Origin: a virus
Reading direction: 5' to 3' (one strand)
Length of the DNA stretch: 22,401 nucleotides
IMG/VR virus record: IMGVR_UViG_3300020446_000829
Location: 1-22,401 of that record
Made by a program: the position numbers and the translations under genes. Below are positions 9,307-22,306 of this stretch, one piece after another. Under the pieces are notes generated by a model that had not been told where the DNA came from, made no database searches, and was given only the letters and a program-made list of their open reading frames with translations. Position 1 is the stretch's first letter. Each line of letters starts with the position of its first letter.

Positions 9307-9314
9307 TATTTATC
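9307..9314 (-). promoter_or_regulatory. T4-type late promoter box GATAAATA
   Basis: GATAAATA in the gap between two genes, differing from the T4 late consensus TATAAATA only in the first base, which is also variable in marine T4-like phages. It lies 26 bases before ATG 9280, with an AGAGGA ribosome site in between, the spacing expected for a short late leader. Confidence 0.6.
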
Positions 9315-10812: not shown

Positions 10813-10820
10813 TATTTATC
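10813..10820 (-). promoter_or_regulatory. Late box GATAAATA five bases before an ATG
   Basis: GATAAATA-TTACT-ATG: the box overlaps the stop codon of the HAD/ParB gene (AGATAA) and stands 5 bases before ATG 10807. With a T4-type late start about 6 bases downstream of the box, the mRNA would begin at or near the ATG, i.e. be leaderless. No ribosome site is present. Confidence 0.5.
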
Positions 10821-14457: not shown

Positions 14458-14465
14458 TATTTATC
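14458..14465 (-). promoter_or_regulatory. T4-type late promoter box GATAAATA
   Basis: GATAAATA in the 40-base gap between two genes, 21 bases before ATG 14436, with a TAGGAG ribosome site in between. It probably drives the 124-residue gene and the modular cluster downstream. Confidence 0.65.
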
Positions 14466-15271: not shown

Positions 15272-15931
15272 TTATCTTGTTTCGGGTTGGTACACGAGCT
15301 TATCGATCCGCATTATATTGTCATTTAAGAACAATCTAACGATAGTTAATATGCTATCATTCTTAACATATATGTATTTGCCCTTTAAATTACGTTCCTG
15401 TTTTAGATCACGTATTAGCCTATCTCCTGCTCTAATCTTATCCGTATTGCTTAAACAATATTCTGCAAAGTTAGGATCCGCAGTACCATTTAGGTATGCT
15501 TTGAATTCATATTCTATTGGCTTGTTTACAACAATAGTATTCTTTTCTAAGTTAGGCATACTAGGTTCCCATAACCAAGGAACATCTTTTAGCTTTCTAG
15601 CTATAACTTTTAACCATTGTACGTTATTAGAGTATATACCTAGACGTGAGCCTTCACATCTTAACATAAAATCTTCTTTATCTTGGAAATGACTAATTAA
15701 AACTTTAAGATCAAAGAAATCATTTTCTGTAATGTCAGTTTCTCTTTGCGAGTATCTATGAAACTTTAATCTTAATGGCTGTCCTTGTCCACTCTTAAGT
15801 TCTAGTCCGTCAATAATATCTCTAGCATTCTGCAGACGTTTGTTTCTGAAGATATGTGTAGCTGAATTATATACTCCTAGCTTGTAGGCGTACTTGTCCC
15901 AGAACAGTTTATTACTAGTTTTTTTGATCAA
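15272..15931 (-). CDS. Hypothetical 219-residue protein of the ClpA operon
   Basis: The start is TTG 15931, overlapping the end of the ClpA-like gene by 17 bases, with GGAG about 10 bases upstream; no ATG is suitably placed. The protein is basic with mixed secondary structure: KYAYKLGVYNSATHIFRNKR, LRLKFHRYSQRETDITENDF, MLRCEGSRLGIYSNN, and a C-terminal LFLNDNIMRIDKLVYQPETR. I recognise no domain. Its overlap with the unfoldase gene suggests co-translation and perhaps a related job such as adaptor, which is speculation. Confidence 0.7.
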   Translation of the reverse strand: MIKKTSNKLFWDKYAYKLGVYNSATHIFRNKRLQNARDIIDGLELKSGQGQPLRLKFHRYSQRETDITENDFFDLKVLISHFQDKEDFMLRCEGSRLGIYSNNVQWLKVIARKLKDVPWLWEPSMPNLEKNTIVVNKPIEYEFKAYLNGTADPNFAEYCLSNTDKIRAGDRLIRDLKQERNLKGKYIYVKNDSILTIVRLFLNDNIMRIDKLVYQPETR

Positions 15932-18173
15932 CGGTTTCTTGCTCCTTGATTTTACCGATATTTAATACAAATTTATCGTCTTTAATATCGATATTTAATG
16001 TACCACCATCTTTTAAATCACCAAACAAGAGTTTCTTAGATAAAGGAGTCTTAATGTCCTTGTCAATTACACGTTGTAAAGGTCTTGCACCCATCTTAGC
16101 ATCAAAGCCTTTGTCAACTAACAAGTCTATTGCATCGTCACTTACAGTTGTTGTGACACCTTTCTCAGTTAGCATAGTTTTTAGTTCTACTAGGAACTTG
16201 CCAACAATTTTTATCATTGTATTCTTTTCAAGTTTATTAAATGTCATTGTTCCATCAAGTCTATTTCTAAACTCTGGTGCAAAGAACTTTTTCAACTCTG
16301 TATCTTCGTAGTCTTTAGTTACATCACCAAAGCCAATAGCATTTTGTTCTGCTTCTTGTGAACCTAAGTTAGTAGTTAAGATCAGTACAATGTTTCTACA
16401 GTCAGCAGTTTTACCATTTGAGCCTGTTACAAAACCATTGTCCATGATTTGTAGTAATAAAGAACTTACGTCAGGGTGTGATTTTTCAATTTCATCTAAC
16501 AATAACACACAATTAGGATGTTCTTGTAGTTTAGTAATCAATAGTCCTGCATTTTCTTCAAAGCCTACGTATCCCGGAGGAGAACCTATTAGCTTGGCAA
16601 CACTATGTTTCTCTTGATACTCTGACATATCAAATCTAACTAATTTAACACCTAACTGGCCAGCAAGTTGTTTTGCTGTTTCAGTTTTACCTACACCAGT
16701 TGGACCCATGAATACAAATGATCCAATTGGTTTGTTTTCTTGTTTAAGCCCTGCTTGGGCAACAAGTATTTTATCAACAATCTCATCAATTGCTTTGTCT
16801 TGTCCGTAAATCTCACCTTTAAGATTCTTCTCAAGTTTAGCTAGATTGTTAGTTTCTTTTTCTTTGACTTGCTCTTCAGGTAAGTTAACTGCTTTTGCAA
16901 GTTCAAATTGTACTTCTTCTTCACCTATTACCTTTTCAGCTTTAGGATCTTTTAAATTAAATCTACTACAAGCACAATCAATCAAGTCAATTGCTTTATC
17001 TGGTAGCTTCTTATCTGCTTGATACTTCACACTTAATTTAATTGCAGTATCAATAGCTTGTTCTGTAATAACTGTGTTATGAAACTCCTCATAATACTTC
17101 TTAATACCTTCCAAGATATCTTTTGTTACTTCTTTACTTGGTTCATCAACAGTTACTCTTGCAAACCTACGCATTAATGCACGGTCTTTTTCAAAATACT
17201 TTCTATATTCTTCCCAAGTAGTACTTGCTACTACTTTGATATTACCTTTTGTTAATACAGGCTTTAACATATTAGCTAGATCGTTTGAACTTTGTCCGCC
17301 ACCTGCACCTGCACCATTCATCATATGTGCTTCGTCAATGAATACAATAGTTTTACCACGTTTCTTAAGTGCTGACATAACAAGTTTGAAACGTTCTTCA
17401 AAGTCACCTCTGTATTTAGAACCTGCTAACATACTTCCTATGTCTAAGTTGTAAACACTATACTCTTTTAAGAAGTCTGGAACTGTGTTGTTGACGATGT
17501 TCCAGGCAAGGCCTTCAGCAATAGCTGTTTTACCTACGCCTGGATCACCCACTAGCAAAACGTTATTCTTTGCACGTCTACCTAAAGCGAGTGCAATAGA
17601 ATCTAATTCTTCTATACGTCCTATAACAGGATCAATTTTACCTTTGTCTACTTCTAAGTTTAGATTTGTTGTAAATGAACGTAAAGCTCTAGTAGCCATA
17701 CCTTGCATTTCTTCATCTTCATAGCTATCTGCTACTTCATTACTTAGATAATCTGCAAATTTATCTTTATCAATATTACATTTGCTAATATGATAGTAAG
17801 ACCAGCTTTTCTTTTCGTTCATAATGCTTAAAAATACATCTGAACAATCAATATGATTACGTCCACTAAACAATACTTGCGTAAATGCTCTATTTAAAAC
17901 TCTTTCAACTGCGTGTGTCTTCTTAGGCTTGTACTTTTTAGCCTGTGCTTTATCTAATTGAATAGTTTCCGTTTGTGTTTTTAAATAATTCTCTACATTT
18001 TTCTTAAGGAACTCTGGATCTGCACCATAGCCTTCTATAATTTTAGCAAAGCTATCCTCACATAACATGGCAAAGAGTAAATGTTCAATAGTTACATACT
18101 CGTGATGTAATTTCTTTGCAACATCTACTGCTTTATCAAAAACTAACTGTAACTGTTCACTTGGTTCAACCAT
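15915..18173 (-). CDS. clpA: ClpA-type AAA+ unfoldase with ClpP-docking loop
   Basis: Complete 752-residue Clp/Hsp100 protein (E. coli ClpA 758). Residues 1-145 resemble the Clp N-domain repeat (TIEHLLFAML; GRNHIDCSDVFLSIM). D1 has Walker A GDPGVGKT (209-216), Walker B VFIDEAH and pore loop KYRG (253-256); D2 has GPTGVGKT (490-497), LLLDEIEKSH and GYVG (534-537). The long coiled middle domain of ClpB is absent, so it is ClpA/ClpC-like, not a disaggregase. The stretch AIGFGD (IGF at 613-615) sits where E. coli ClpA has IGL, the tripeptide that docks on ClpP. No ClpP gene is present, so it should use host ClpP to degrade chosen proteins; this is inference. It overlaps deformylase (8 bases) and the 219-residue gene (17 bases). 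Confidence 0.95.
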   Translation of the reverse strand: MVEPSEQLQLVFDKAVDVAKKLHHEYVTIEHLLFAMLCEDSFAKIIEGYGADPEFLKKNVENYLKTQTETIQLDKAQAKKYKPKKTHAVERVLNRAFTQVLFSGRNHIDCSDVFLSIMNEKKSWSYYHISKCNIDKDKFADYLSNEVADSYEDEEMQGMATRALRSFTTNLNLEVDKGKIDPVIGRIEELDSIALALGRRAKNNVLLVGDPGVGKTAIAEGLAWNIVNNTVPDFLKEYSVYNLDIGSMLAGSKYRGDFEERFKLVMSALKKRGKTIVFIDEAHMMNGAGAGGGQSSNDLANMLKPVLTKGNIKVVASTTWEEYRKYFEKDRALMRRFARVTVDEPSKEVTKDILEGIKKYYEEFHNTVITEQAIDTAIKLSVKYQADKKLPDKAIDLIDCACSRFNLKDPKAEKVIGEEEVQFELAKAVNLPEEQVKEKETNNLAKLEKNLKGEIYGQDKAIDEIVDKILVAQAGLKQENKPIGSFVFMGPTGVGKTETAKQLAGQLGVKLVRFDMSEYQEKHSVAKLIGSPPGYVGFEENAGLLITKLQEHPNCVLLLDEIEKSHPDVSSLLLQIMDNGFVTGSNGKTADCRNIVLILTTNLGSQEAEQNAIGFGDVTKDYEDTELKKFFAPEFRNRLDGTMTFNKLEKNTMIKIVGKFLVELKTMLTEKGVTTTVSDDAIDLLVDKGFDAKMGARPLQRVIDKDIKTPLSKKLLFGDLKDGGTLNIDIKDDKFVLNIGKIKEQETVDQKN

Positions 18174-18705
18174 ATAATTTAGTATCCTTAACTTGTCTTG
18201 ATATTCGTTTCAATAATTTGTTCTGCTTCTTCTTAGCCATATCTAATCTCAACTTGCTTACTCTATCAATATAGTTGATTCCGTAAAGATGATCATATTC
18301 GTGACCAAAGATTCTCGCATTCCAACCTGTTAACTCTATTGTACACTCTTTTCCGCTAGAGTCAAGACACTCTGTTACCAATCCTAAAGGTCTTTTAACC
18401 TTAAAGTATAGTAATGGAAAACTTAAACAGCCTTCTTCACCTTCAACCATCTCTTCTGACACCTGTGTAATTTTAGGATTGATGATTGCAAAAGGTTTGT
18501 CGTCTTCGTATCCTTCTAACCCCTTTGGTTTGATAATAAAGATTTGTGCATTAAGTTCAACTTGGTTAGCCGCAAGTCCAACTCCTTGGTTCTTATCCAT
18601 AATTTCAATCATTTGTTCTTCAATCTCTTTTGCATTTAGATTGTCAAAATCAAATGGATCTACTTTTCTTTCTAACCAACTATTTGGGTGATATATCAAT
18701 TTCAT
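18166..18705 (-). CDS. def: Peptide deformylase
   Basis: A 179-residue deformylase with all three motifs: GVGLAANQ (41-48), EGCLSFP (91-97, Cys93 metal ligand) and HEYDH (135-139, catalytic Glu and two His ligands). It removes the formyl group from new N-terminal Met using Fe2+ or Zn2+. Phage deformylases are known from cyanophages and usually lack the C-terminal helix of bacterial enzymes. This one has a long basic C-terminus (RLDMAKKKQNKLLKRISRQV), so it is nearly bacterial in length. Its ATG lies inside the DnaJ gene (26-base overlap) and its end overlaps the ClpA start, so it is the middle cistron of a coupled trio. Confidence 0.93.
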   Translation of the reverse strand: MKLIYHPNSWLERKVDPFDFDNLNAKEIEEQMIEIMDKNQGVGLAANQVELNAQIFIIKPKGLEGYEDDKPFAIINPKITQVSEEMVEGEEGCLSFPLLYFKVKRPLGLVTECLDSSGKECTIELTGWNARIFGHEYDHLYGINYIDRVSKLRLDMAKKKQNKLLKRISRQVKDTKLYG

Positions 18706-19555
18706 CTTTTATCTTTGCTAGTCTTTCTCTAATGTTTTCGTTTGTAATACTTGGTGTTATACCAATTACTTTCATAAACAAGTTACCAGTTCTACCACTT
18801 CTTTGATCTGGCAAGCCTTGTCCACTTATACTAAAAGTTGTACCTGAGTTTGAGCCTGGAGGAACACTAACACTTATTTCTTTTCCGTGTAATGTTTTAA
18901 CTCTAATGTTTGAGCCTAGTAATAGATCGAATACACTAACGTTTCTCTCTATATATAAATTTATGCCATCTACTTCATAGTCAGGGTGTCTTCTGACTCT
19001 TACTTTAACAAACAAATTGCCTCTTGGCATATTAGGAACTTGGTCTCCTCCCATTCCTGAATAACGTATTGTATCTCCAGGACGTACTCCTTTTGGTAAT
19101 GTAATGTTTACTGTTTGCTCTTTGCCACTAGGTAACCTATATGTAGCTATTACTTCCTTACCATTTATAATATCTTCTAATGTAATGTCTGCGGCGATAG
19201 TTATATCTTGATTACGCATTTGTCTGCGTCCTTGAAATGGATTAGCTTGTCCAAAGCCTTCGCCAAAGAATGTGCTAAACACTTCTTCAAAACCATTACC
19301 GCCCATGTTAAAATGGAACTGTTGACCTTGGTGTGTTCTGTGCATTTGTTGTGGATCTGTTGTACCAAATTGATCATACATCTGTTTCTTTTGAGGATCA
19401 GATAATGTTTGGTATGCTTCGTTTATTTCTTTGAATTTGGTATCGTCGCCACCCGTGCGATCAGGGTGGTGTTGCATACTTTGTTTCTTGTATGCACTCT
19501 TAATTTCTTTACTAGTGGCGTTTCGTGAGACACCTAGGCTGTTGTAATAGTCCAT
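18680..19555 (-). CDS. DnaJ/CbpA-like J-domain co-chaperone
   Basis: A 291-residue protein with a J domain (residues 2-65, HPD at 30-32, NEAYQTLSDPQKKQMYDQFG at its end), a Gly/Phe-rich linker (GGNGFEEVFSTFFGEGFGQ), then two C-terminal beta domains (NITLPKGVRPGDTIRYSGMG; NLFVKVRVRRHPDYEVDG; VSVPPGSNSGTTFSISG). The CxxCxGxG zinc repeats of DnaJ are absent, so it is CbpA-like (type II). J proteins deliver substrates to DnaK and stimulate its ATPase; no DnaK is encoded here, so host DnaK is the likely partner. The ATG has no ribosome site and stands 5 bases after GATAAGTA, a variant late box. Overlaps deformylase by 26 bases. Confidence 0.92.
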   Translation of the reverse strand: MDYYNSLGVSRNATSKEIKSAYKKQSMQHHPDRTGGDDTKFKEINEAYQTLSDPQKKQMYDQFGTTDPQQMHRTHQGQQFHFNMGGNGFEEVFSTFFGEGFGQANPFQGRRQMRNQDITIAADITLEDIINGKEVIATYRLPSGKEQTVNITLPKGVRPGDTIRYSGMGGDQVPNMPRGNLFVKVRVRRHPDYEVDGINLYIERNVSVFDLLLGSNIRVKTLHGKEISVSVPPGSNSGTTFSISGQGLPDQRSGRTGNLFMKVIGITPSITNENIRERLAKIKDEIDISPK

Positions 19556-19575: not shown

Positions 19576-19911
19576 TTACTTGTCAGACTTCTTGCTGGTT
19601 CCTGTGTATAATCCAAACCATGCCGCACCTGCACCAACTACAATACTAATCAAACCTGATTGTTCCATAGTAGGACTTGGTAAGTTCATATACCAAATTA
19701 CACACTTGTATAAAAGTACAATGTAAACAGTTAGGAATAATCTTGGAAAAATTCTCCAAGCATCTACGGCTCTTGCCATATGTATTAATTTTGCATATGG
19801 ATTTGGACCTAGGTCCTTCACAGAAGTATCTACTTCTAACTCTACGTTTACTTTTTTCTTGACATCTGCCACCGGCTTCGCCCCCTCTTCTAATTTATTA
19901 TCTTTTTCCAT
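19576..19911 (-). CDS. Holin-like two-helix membrane protein
   Basis: 111 residues with a charged N-terminal tail (MEKDNKLEEGAKPVADVKKK), two hydrophobic helices (around IFPRLFLTVYIVLLYKCVIW and LISIVVGAGAAWFGLYTG), a short connecting loop with Pro, and a basic C-terminus GTSKKSDK. Size, two-helix topology and charged end fit class II holins, and the gene sits in the lysis region with endolysin and spanins. No specific holin family is recognised, so the function is inferred from layout. Its ATG lies 14 bases inside the end of the MscS-like gene with no ribosome site, implying coupled translation. Confidence 0.55.
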   Translation of the reverse strand: MEKDNKLEEGAKPVADVKKKVNVELEVDTSVKDLGPNPYAKLIHMARAVDAWRIFPRLFLTVYIVLLYKCVIWYMNLPSPTMEQSGLISIVVGAGAAWFGLYTGTSKKSDK

Positions 19912-20329
19912 TTTTAATATTTTTTATTTCGTTTGTATTTTTTTCTATAGCGTCTGTTTGTGCCTTATCTATCATTGCCTGCATTCTACGTCCTTTTTCT
20001 GCTTCGCTATCTAAATGTAAATCTTGATTAATTATTTTTTCAAGTTTATGAAACTTTAATCTATCGTTGGGTATAAATCTCCAAACATATCCTTTGTCTC
20101 GATATACACCAAATACACTTTCACGTAATCCTATTTTAACAATAATCGCATCGTCATCATCTAATATAATATGATCGCCTTCGTTAAAAGCAGGATTGAA
20201 TTTAAACTTTAATCCAGACATTAGGTTAACTGCAAAGTCCTTAAACCAGAAAGCCGCCGATATAGATATTAGTATTGCAATCCAAGGGGCTAAAATATCT
20301 GTAAGTTCCATTCCTAATTGATCAAACAT
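19898..20329 (-). CDS. Minimal MscS-like channel/beta-domain protein
   Basis: 143 residues. A membrane helix (WIAILISISAAFWFK, about 16-30) is followed by a TM3-like stretch FAVNLMSGLKFKFNPAF and the MscS beta domain: NEGDHIILDDDDAIIVKIGL, then VWRFIPNDRLKF, matching the GD and IPN signatures of MscS channels. After residue 102 comes a charged helix. Standard MscS has three or more membrane helices; here only one, equal to the pore-lining TM3, remains. In bacteria MscS relieves osmotic pressure. In a phage lysis region it may form a pore or modulate host tension sensing; this is speculation. Starts ATG 20329 with AGAAGAAG upstream, one base after the previous stop. Confidence 0.6.
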   Translation of the reverse strand: MFDQLGMELTDILAPWIAILISISAAFWFKDFAVNLMSGLKFKFNPAFNEGDHIILDDDDAIIVKIGLRESVFGVYRDKGYVWRFIPNDRLKFHKLEKIINQDLHLDSEAEKGRRMQAMIDKAQTDAIEKNTNEIKNIKNGKR

Positions 20330-20330
20330 T

Positions 20331-20612
20331 TTACTTCTTCTTTTCTATCTTCTTTAAACGTGCTTCTAGCTCGTCAATCTTTTTAGTTACGTATGGATAT
20401 TTCTTTCTCCAAGCATCTTCTGGTTGCTGTAGCCAAGTCCAACCCCAACGTTCTACAAGGTAATCAGCTATGCGGTCAAAATGGCCGTACATCCAAAGTC
20501 CAAGTCTTGTTGATTTAAAATAAGTTGAAAAAGCAAGACCAAACAAAGATCCTACAAGAGCTGTGTAGATCCACAGTCTATCCGTAGCCATTCTTTCTAT
20601 CATTTCCCACAT
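20331..20612 (-). CDS. Hypothetical single-helix membrane protein with coiled-coil end (93 aa)
   Basis: An N-terminal membrane helix (LWIYTALVGSLFGLAFSTYF) is followed by an aromatic amphipathic region (GLWMYGHFDRIADYLVERWG, WTWLQQPEDAWRKKYP) and a basic coiled coil at the end (KKIDELEARLKKIEKKK). No family is recognised. First gene behind a late box at 20636-20643, with AGGAG before ATG 20612. The position in the lysis region and membrane topology would suit an antiholin or channel subunit, but nothing proves it. Confidence 0.7.
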   Translation of the reverse strand: MWEMIERMATDRLWIYTALVGSLFGLAFSTYFKSTRLGLWMYGHFDRIADYLVERWGWTWLQQPEDAWRKKYPYVTKKIDELEARLKKIEKKK

Positions 20613-20635: not shown

Positions 20636-20643
20636 TATTTATC
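20636..20643 (-). promoter_or_regulatory. T4-type late promoter box GATAAATA
   Basis: GATAAATA, 23 bases before ATG 20612 in the gap after the outer-spanin gene, with CGAGGAG as ribosome site. It would start a late message for the membrane-protein, MscS-like and holin-like genes. A TATAAT-like hexamer follows it at about 20627-20632. Confidence 0.65.
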
Positions 20644-20651
20644 TGATATTA

Positions 20652-21044
20652 CTAGTCTTTTGTGTCGGGTTTGTTCTTAGTACCTTCGTAGTACTCTTTG
20701 TAAGACTTGATTATTTCGTCTTGTTGTAGCATATAAGCACGTATCTGTGCAAAGTTTTTAGCTAATGCTTCGTAGCCATCATCTGTTAGTCCAAATAATA
20801 CAGGATCAACGCCACCTGCTTTTAGTTTTTCAAATACTTCATCAGCATTTTCAGATGTAATAATAGTCCATTTGATTTCTTCTAGTTTAGGTGTTAACGG
20901 TGCAGGCAATTCAAGAGGTTGTCTATCTTCTTTTACTGAGAAGATTTCTAATTGTTTTACTGCTGTACCGCAACTAGTAAGGAACGTAGTTAGGGTTAGC
21001 AATACTAGGACATTCAGAATTGATTTCAGACTTCTTAGTTGCAT
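20652..21044 (-). CDS. Outer-membrane spanin-like lipoprotein (o-spanin)
   Basis: 130 residues. The N-terminus has a signal peptide (MQLRSLKSILNVLVLLTLTT) and lipobox LTSC (Cys25), so the mature product should be a lipid-anchored protein of about 106 residues. Pro-rich PLELPAPLTPKLEE follows, and a coiled C-terminal part. Its first 71 bases lie out of frame within the end of the inner spanin gene, the Rz/Rz1-like overlap. The partner pair fuses inner and outer membranes at the last step of lysis. Larger than lambda Rz1, so an o-spanin role rests on lipobox and position. ATG with GGAGAAAGAG upstream. Confidence 0.7.
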   Translation of the reverse strand: MQLRSLKSILNVLVLLTLTTFLTSCGTAVKQLEIFSVKEDRQPLELPAPLTPKLEEIKWTIITSENADEVFEKLKAGGVDPVLFGLTDDGYEALAKNFAQIRAYMLQQDEIIKSYKEYYEGTKNKPDTKD

Positions 21045-21459
21045 TTTTCTCTTTCTCCGTTAATGGACTGCCCATAGCAATTTCGCTACATCTCATTGCA
21101 TTGGTACTTCCTTTATTAATTATCTTCTCTACAGACTCAGGCCTCTTCGTTGCGAGATCACCAATATCACGCACCTCACCTTTTCCGTTTATTTTATTGA
21201 ACTTTTTATCCAAAGCCGCAAATTCGGCTTTAAGAATTTTGTTTTGTTTTTCTATTTCTGCTTTTATTTTAGTCATTGCTTCAAAGTCTTCTTTCATCTG
21301 TTTAATAACAGCTTTTTGACTTTCAACACTTTGTTCTAACTTTAGATTGTTAGCTTCTGATGTAGCCAAGTCTGCTTTTAGATTCTTTACATACATAAAT
21401 CCTCCGCCAGCACCTGCTAACACTACTAACATTAATGCAATTTTTATAGAACTAAACAC
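20974..21459 (-). CDS. Inner-membrane spanin-like protein (Rz-type)
   Basis: 161 residues: one N-terminal membrane helix (IALMLVVLAGAGGGFMYV), then a long periplasmic coiled coil (LATSEANNLKLEQSVESQKA; KIKAEIEKQNKILKAEFAAL), and a C-terminal region with Cys (TNAMRCSEIAMG; NSECPSIANPN). This is the Rz/i-spanin layout. The start is GTG 21459, overlapping the end of the ACP-like gene by 8 bases, with GGAG seven bases upstream. Its 3' end contains the start of the lipoprotein gene. Acts with that lipoprotein to span the periplasm at lysis. Confidence 0.75.
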   Translation of the reverse strand: MFSSIKIALMLVVLAGAGGGFMYVKNLKADLATSEANNLKLEQSVESQKAVIKQMKEDFEAMTKIKAEIEKQNKILKAEFAALDKKFNKINGKGEVRDIGDLATKRPESVEKIINKGSTNAMRCSEIAMGSPLTEKEKNATKKSEINSECPSIANPNYVPY

Positions 21460-21676
21460 TCTTGCTCTCCACTAATTTAATAAAGTCGCCAACTGTCTTT
21501 ACGTTAGCTTCTTCTTCACTTGAAATGCTTGTACCTGTTGCTTCTTGTATCGCAATGGTAAGTTCAACGATATCAAAGTCGTCAGCACCTAAGTCATCTA
21601 TCAAAGATGCTCCTGGTACGACCTTAGACGCATCAACGTCTAAATGTTCTGCTATTGCTTTAACTACTTTTTCCAT
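21452..21676 (-). CDS. Acyl carrier protein homologue lacking the phosphopantetheine Ser
   Basis: 74 residues that fit ACP over the whole length: helix I (VVKAIAEHLDVDASKV), the DDLGADxxDxVEL core, helix III/IV (TVGDFIKLVE), acidic overall. In E. coli ACP the core reads GADSLDTVEL and Ser36 carries 4'-phosphopantetheine. Here the codons read GCT GAC GAC TTT GAT: GADDFDIVEL, with Asp33 in place of Ser. It therefore cannot be charged the usual way. The role is unknown: it might bind ACP-recognising host proteins as a mimic or act structurally. It overlaps the zinc-ribbon gene by 17 bases and the inner-spanin gene by 8. Confidence 0.85.
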   Translation of the reverse strand: MEKVVKAIAEHLDVDASKVVPGASLIDDLGADDFDIVELTIAIQEATGTSISSEEEANVKTVGDFIKLVESKSV

Positions 21677-21800
21677 CTTCTTCCTCGTAACGTGGATGTT
21701 CGCAAACCACTATTTCTATTGGCTTGTTATCTCCGTCTTTAAACTCTTCGATTAATCTGCCTTCGTGAGCTCTACCACAGTTCTGGCAGTATTTAATCAT
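21660..21800 (-). CDS. Tiny zinc-ribbon-like protein (46 aa)
   Basis: ATG 21800 overlaps the TGA of the endolysin gene (ATGA) and the TAA lies inside the start of the ACP-like gene. The sequence MIKYCQNCGRAHEGRL has a CxxC pair, and VVCEHPRYEE supplies another Cys and a His, so a single zinc site (C5, C8, C33, H35 or H12) is plausible. Acidic tail. No family is recognised. Fits exactly between two real genes, which supports expression. Confidence 0.65.
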   Translation of the reverse strand: MIKYCQNCGRAHEGRLIEEFKDGDNKPIEIVVCEHPRYEEEDGKSS

Positions 21801-22306
21801 ACTAATTTTTTGGCTAATTCTGTAGTTTCGTCGACTCTTCTAGTCCAACCTCTTCCGAACGTATCGAAAGTACTCAAAGACTCGTAATACTTTTGTCTTT
21901 CAGCTTGAAAATTTTCAATGGTTGACTCAATGCCGTGTGCATCAACATACTCAGCCACCTTCGCTAATGTATTAGGACCAATGCCACCGTCAGCAACTGT
22001 ACCAATCATTGTTTGTAAGTATTTTGCTGAACGTCCTGGGCCTGCATTAACACCAAAGTCGAATACACATAAGTCTAAACCACCTGGTAAATCGTCGCCC
22101 TTCATTTTGTCCCAATATCCTTTTTTATAAATCGGTGCAACATCTTCAACTGTTAAGTCTTTCATGTCTTTAGTTCCACCGTGTTCTTCGTAAACTCTTT
22201 TTGTAACACCTAGGTTTGTTTCCCCGCCTGGATCTTTAGGGTGATTTACATATCCACCTTCGTGGTGCAGAATAGTCTCCAAGCATTTATCGTAATTTGA
22301 TTGCAT
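21797..22306 (-). CDS. Endolysin, GH108 family muramidase
   Basis: 169 residues of the GH108/PG-binding-3 lysozyme type. The catalytic Glu16 lies in HEGGYVNHP, followed by KDPGGETNLGVTKRVYE, the diagnostic N-terminal motif. The C-terminal half has the FDFGVNAGPGRSAKYLQ segment and GGIGPNTL, matching the family's peptidoglycan-binding part. The enzyme should cleave the MurNAc-GlcNAc bond. No signal peptide or anchor is seen, so a holin should release it (19576-19911 is a candidate). First recognised gene in the lysis region; ribosome site AAGGAA before ATG 22306. Confidence 0.9.
   Translation of the reverse strand: MQSNYDKCLETILHHEGGYVNHPKDPGGETNLGVTKRVYEEHGGTKDMKDLTVEDVAPIYKKGYWDKMKGDDLPGGLDLCVFDFGVNAGPGRSAKYLQTMIGTVADGGIGPNTLAKVAEYVDAHGIESTIENFQAERQKYYESLSTFDTFGRGWTRRVDETTELAKKLV

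Follow-up and report, generated by a model that had tools for sequence, protein, structure and literature searches.

Genes for chaperones, Clp proteins and peptide deformylases have long been listed one at a time in the genomes of jumbo phages, without an agreed function. ClpA, ClpS, ClpP and DnaJ are handled as single genes in the jumbo-phage literature, as are DnaJ, DnaK and ClpA in that on moraphages; the Clp proteins and DnaJ of Agrobacterium phage Atu_ph07 have been remarked on singly, and in phage AP-J-162 a deformylase (gp154) and a DnaJ (gp155) are neighbours by number (PMC11242549). Here we consider a 22.4 kb viral sequence (IMG/VR record IMGVR_UViG_3300020446_000829, positions 1 to 22,401; hereafter the window), in which genes for a J-domain protein (DnaJ), a peptide deformylase (PDF) and a ClpA-type unfoldase follow one another. 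Our preferred reading, to which we give a probability of about 0.55, is that in a jumbo-phage lineage akin to Atu_ph07 and Sinorhizobium phage Phosso this cassette may serve as a proteostasis module that belongs to the phage and is expressed late.

The three open reading frames (ORFs) overlap end to start, as a preliminary description of this DNA had it, by 26 nt between dnaJ (18680-19555, minus strand) and pdf (18166-18705, minus) and by 8 nt between pdf and clpA (15915-18173, minus). The first encodes a protein of 291 aa that is of type B (DnaJ2/CbpA-like), having a J domain with the HPD motif (family match 5.7e-24), a G/F-like stretch and a DnaJ_C domain (2.5e-33) and lacking a zinc finger, like T. 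thermophilus DnaJ2; its score against the type A model TIGR02349 (222 bits, under the curated cut-off of 377) places it outside type A. HPD is kept in all 110 aligned DnaJs. The deformylase (179 aa; family match 3.6e-43) scores 123.1 bits against TIGR00079, above the curated cut-off of 103.95, with the three active-site motifs in place (GVGLAANQ, EEGCLSFP and GHEYDH), and across relatives EGCLS is found in 72/72 and HExDH in 71/71 sequences (one gap). By motifs and cut-off it belongs to the peptide deformylase family, and it would be expected to deformylate.

The unfoldase (752 aa) has an N domain and two AAA+ rings (Clp_N, AAA, AAA_lid_9, AAA_2 and ClpB_D2-small) and lacks the ClpB middle domain. 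Its best family is NCBIfam TIGR02639, at 869.6 bits and thus under the equivalog cut-off of 993, so that it is ClpA-type yet outside the bacterial ClpA equivalog class. Residues 613-615, IGF, align to the IGL loop of E. coli ClpA (PDB 1ksf, E 1.6e-197). I/V-G-F occupies this docking position in 119/119 aligned ClpAs, in which the flanking columns vary; the Walker A and B motifs of either ring, GYVG and the second arginine finger show next to no variation. Phage ClpA would be expected to bind ClpP and to drive ATP-dependent degradation. The lack of zinc fingers, the full deformylase and an IGF at the ClpP-binding position had all been claimed at first sight, and each claim stands.

A phage origin, likewise proposed at the outset, is upheld. 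The DNA polymerase of the window is nearest to those of Phosso (50%) and Atu_ph07 (46%), followed by Rak2-like phages; the window is a piece of a jumbo phage akin to the first two. IMG/VR was scanned with ClpA and with DnaJ, yielding at least 153 loci, which together with the window and two phage records make 156, some contigs entering through both queries; the ClpA scan found at least 594 relatives, and the true cassette total is larger. Removal of identical ClpAs and short genes left 111 distinct ClpAs with a full DnaJ and 70 with a full PDF. Records of Acinetobacter phage MD-2021a (e.g. L320 and L321) were not counted as phage matches, as they look bacterial (a chromosomal clpS-clpA neighbourhood), and several Listeria and Salmonella "phage" records with ClpA, DnaJ or PDF matches, probably bacterial DNA too, were left out. 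The cassette family is one of giant, mostly aquatic phages.

In these loci dnaJ and clpA lie on one strand in 151 of 156 cases, with pdf between them in 96 and absent in 55, and a third scan, seeded with PDF, returned the trio in 53 of 55 loci; the arrangement is therefore beyond chance, and the adjacency check on relatives suggested with the first description was passed. Overlap is the rule as well, median spacing being -20 nt for dnaJ-pdf and -8 nt for pdf-clpA. Gene distances rise together (Mantel r 0.64 for dnaJ-clpA, 0.86 for pdf-clpA and 0.82 for pdf-dnaJ), and those of p219, the gene after clpA, rise with the distances of all three, which fits inheritance as a unit. On the ClpA tree the cassette proteins group in a single clade that excludes 44 bacterial ClpAs (support 100), and no PDF of the cassette type was seen near clpA in 80 bacterial clpA loci. 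Ahead of clpA, three bacterial loci have a weak J-domain match (E 1e-6 to 1e-9) but no PDF, and they were not regarded as homologous cassettes. A cassette-type PDF without DnaJ or ClpA neighbours was found near radical-SAM-like genes in one contig (L223:6001-6516), so this PDF can exist outside the cassette.

When the cassette is read during infection is suggested by a motif further upstream. A T4-type late-promoter-like motif, GATAAATA, lies at 20636-20643 (minus) in the gap upstream of p93 (20331-20612, minus), the gene of a small protein with a single hydrophobic stretch. Within 60 nt upstream of p93, mostly 20-27 nt from the start, NATAAATA occurs in 59 of 65 distinct relatives, against a mean of 4.5 and a maximum of 26 for permuted heptamers; it is found upstream of dnaJ in 0/101, pdf in 0/70, clpA in 1/108 and p219 in 2/94 cases. 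ATAAATA ranks first of 21 permutations by frequency upstream of genes (18 loci). T4-type late promoters are defined by a TATAAATA-like element upstream of late genes that is read by gp55, and NATAAATA is a candidate for one by its position; the same motif has been predicted as late promoter in the Rak2-like phage CBB (PMC5259590). Since the motif sits upstream of p93 and hardly ever before dnaJ, pdf, clpA or p219, transcription of the trio is predicted to be late and to run from p93 onward. Two more GATAAATA motifs, at 9307-9314 and 14458-14465 (minus), each in a gap shortly before a gene, are candidate late promoters; those at 10813 and 15103 were rejected, as they fall on stop codons of upstream ORFs. 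A single weak match to phrog_1544, a guessed gp55 family, was discarded.

Partners for the cassette proteins were sought in 17 of the largest cassette-bearing records. A canonical ClpP with Ser, His and Asp in place is encoded by seven, including all four above 250 kb, ClpS by six and DnaK by two; in two further records the sole ClpP-like protein is a divergent one. In the seven canonical ClpPs the catalytic residues and an N-terminus of the LVPMV type are retained, as an alignment of L162 with solved ClpP chains exemplifies, and the ND(D/E)xTPM motif is present in most ClpSs. A ClpP-family gene is also present in each of six other complete jumbo phages with ClpA; among ClpA-bearing relatives above 250 kb the count is 10/10. 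A 268 kb contig whose DnaJ is 61% identical has a canonical ClpP. Leu/Phe transferase (Aat, PF03588), sought as a test of an N-degron pathway, is absent from all 17 records. In a 117 kb contig, genes for ClpS, Hsp20 and DnaK stand side by side (L178:8435-13284), adjoining genes that resemble heme oxygenase and a tryptophan-halogenase-like flavoprotein. Several relatives (L165, L166, L326:1547-1810 and L327:548-1111) have another ClpP-like protein, divergent and of the MNHQHSD type, with an in-frame TAG reported within the matched stretch in two contigs.

The preliminary description had the trio recruiting both DnaK and ClpP of the host. The former is supported: a J protein should require an Hsp70, which most of the relatives do not encode, and host DnaK is likely its partner in most members. 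For ClpP the docking loop is indeed intact, but a ClpP-family gene in every ClpA-bearing relative above 250 kb means that host-ClpP recruitment was probably wrong in part. As the larger relatives encode canonical ClpP, the step is unnecessary for the lineage; the window spans 22.4 kb, and in relatives the ClpP gene lies tens of kb away.

Other viral PDFs were described in 2017 as active enzymes in which the ribosome-interacting C-terminal region is absent or shortened (PMC5591237), whereas the window PDF has a basic C-terminal tail of 40 aa past motif III, and cassette PDFs in general have a median of 34 aa there (29-40, 5th to 95th percentile) with a net charge of about +6. Because this tail is kept, the cassette PDF may dock on the ribosome. 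Formyl-methionine can serve as a degradation signal in bacteria (PMC4745127), which would tie deformylation to protein turnover.

Taken together, these features suggest a mechanism drawn from family knowledge, conserved motifs, gene order and the promoter-like motif, its functional steps being what we infer. The cassette would be read late in infection from the T4-type promoter ahead of p93, with translation coupled. The PDF, with a basic C-terminal helix of the type that docks E. coli PDF on the ribosome, would raise deformylation capacity for the burst of late proteins; the J protein would pass unfolded late proteins to Hsp70, that is to host DnaK in most members and to a phage DnaK in a few; and ClpA would unfold whatever fails folding or assembly and pass it on to ClpP, a phage-encoded one in the larger relatives. 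Presumably, then, the enzymes are catalytically active, expressed late and physically coupled, with late phage proteins as their main substrates. A stronger form, which we regard as doubtful, is that these phages own a self-contained quality-control line for nascent proteins, comprising a ribosome-docking deformylase, a J protein and ClpA-ClpP-ClpS, with phage Hsp70 and Hsp20 in some; DnaJ, PDF and ClpA would be produced jointly, so that late proteins would be deformylated and then folded or destroyed in one host-independent channel.

The window also holds what surrounds the trio. Downstream, p219 (15272-15931, minus) encodes a conserved protein whose ORF overlaps the end of clpA here and in 128 of the 131 loci holding both; its predicted model is confident (pLDDT 92) and alpha/beta, a fold search against the PDB gave no clear match (no Foldseek E < 0.001, every VIA Z < 5), and its homologues are all unnamed phage proteins, one of them in Atu_ph07. 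Directly upstream of dnaJ, at a median distance of 38 nt across loci, is p111 (19576-19911, minus), for a small protein whose C-terminal half is hydrophobic and conserved. It is preceded by p143 (19898-20329, minus), for a minimal MscS-like protein of one long helix and an MscS beta domain, whose listed PDB matches are MscS-like mechanosensitive channels and which was found in 39 loci only; in an operon with lysis genes, so tiny a protein might act as a holin or channel. Ahead of p93 lie the lysis genes and one for an acyl carrier protein, in the order endolysin of glycosyl hydrolase family 108 (21797-22306, minus), acyl carrier protein (21452-21676, minus, placed likewise in some relatives), Rz-like inner spanin (20974-21459, minus) and Rz1-like outer spanin lipoprotein (20652-21044, minus). 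We thus predict a late operon p93-p143-p111-dnaJ-pdf-clpA-p219 behind the spanin genes. The trio at 15915-19555, first described as the unit, is confirmed, but the unit is larger, from p93 (20612) to p219 (15272).

Several observations weigh against a late, phage-owned module. Some third of the cassettes lack PDF, and at least 10 changes in its presence fall on the ClpA tree, which makes it non-essential to the module; dnaJ and clpA distances correlate just moderately. The late promoter is predicted from a sequence motif and presupposes gp55/gp33 factors in these genomes. ClpP, ClpS and DnaK genes are far from the cassette; canonical ClpP has so far not been seen in the closest relatives of the window, whose contigs are mostly 20-70 kb, and all that a 199.8 kb contig shows is a divergent, ClpP-like fragment at one end. 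With the ClpP gene tens of kb distant, it is seldom captured on short fragments. This absence would also suit a host takeover, in which the cassette acts early or throughout infection, redirects host DnaK and ClpP and destroys host proteins, as would the intact docking loop and J domain and the want of an Hsp70 in most members. We nevertheless consider a takeover unlikely, given the phage ClpP in all four records above 250 kb and the ClpP-family genes of the six other jumbo phages. The late-promoter-like signal and the lysis context also favour a late role on phage proteins over the turnover of host proteins that was first suggested.

The same lysis context could instead mean that the chaperone and the unfoldase govern the amounts or the timing of the spanins, p93, p143 and p111. 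The trio shares a predicted transcription unit with the last three, directly behind the spanin pair, and two spanin-like genes precede dnaJ in Phosso and Atu_ph07; but p143 is confined to its 39 loci, and the pair of phage PA5oct lies among virion structural genes and the Rak2-like ClpA beside a tail sheath stabilizer gene, so the lysis link is lineage-specific and such control seems distinctly unlikely. Structural-gene neighbourhoods, in 121Q, XaC1, Vibrio phage 2.275.O and PA5oct, point towards virion assembly, with ClpA remodelling virion parts together with DnaJ/DnaK and without ClpP, in line with the role that Iyer et al. 2021 (PMC7824862) put forward for ClpA/ClpX of jumbo phages. The late motif upstream of p93 would suit this too, but an invariant I/V-G-F is needless in a protease-independent, ClpB-like remodeller, and we find the idea very unlikely. 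As for counter-defence, where phage DnaJ or ClpA would evade or dismantle host immune proteins, it has literature precedent only (bNACHT25 is reported to need DnaJ for phage sensing, PMC12169576); no defence-related neighbours were seen, expression is predicted to be late, and the proposal appears far-fetched.

An overlapping and conserved DnaJ-PDF-ClpA operon with ClpP in the same genomes brings these scattered annotations together as one testable system, and the intact PDF tail and the late-promoter motif lead to specific predictions on place and time of action. Culturable models exist in Phosso on Sinorhizobium meliloti and, for the DnaJ-ClpA pair, in PA5oct-like phages on Pseudomonas aeruginosa PAO1.

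Among known systems, E. coli ClpAP-ClpS resembles the phage proteins in ClpA architecture, IGL/IGF loop, ClpP triad and ClpS adaptor (the last two in relatives). The phage ClpAs form a clade of their own, however, 40-45% identical to the nearest bacterial ones, and def is adjacent in none of the bacterial clpA loci examined. Viral PDFs of S-SSM7 and Vp16 (PMC5591237) share family and catalytic motifs, the cassette enzymes differing by the basic tail that they have kept. Rak2-like phages (121Q, RaK2 and XaC1) have a single ClpA and a ClpP-family gene, with DnaJ and PDF not adjacent, and their loop sequence is IGM in 121Q, with IGV in Vibrio phage 2.275.O, as opposed to IGF/VGF in the cassette. 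PA5oct (EST35_0297-0298), whose DnaJ-ClpA pair is near-identical in 11 records, has dnaJ directly upstream of clpA, as in the window, and its own ClpP, but its DnaJ is short and divergent (229 aa), PDF is absent and structural genes lie around. Atu_ph07 (gp293-gp292; PMC6102473) also has DnaJ directly upstream of ClpA and its own ClpP, ClpS, ClpX and ClpB; unlike in the window, no PDF lies between the two. Each gene type is known from jumbo phages and the three-gene operon seems to be undescribed: we found no account of the trio as an operon in the open-access literature, subscription papers being outside the search. The earlier statement that such a trio was not known went too far, although it holds for a description as a unit: the genes themselves are present in cultured Phosso (genes 193-195, PV764938), annotated singly. 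There they share the DnaJ-PDF-ClpA order of the window, on one strand and with spanin-like genes upstream, and ClpP and ClpS are encoded elsewhere in the genome; Phosso differs in that the genes nearly abut without overlap, p219, p111, p143 and p93 were not detected, and its ClpA is 43% identical.

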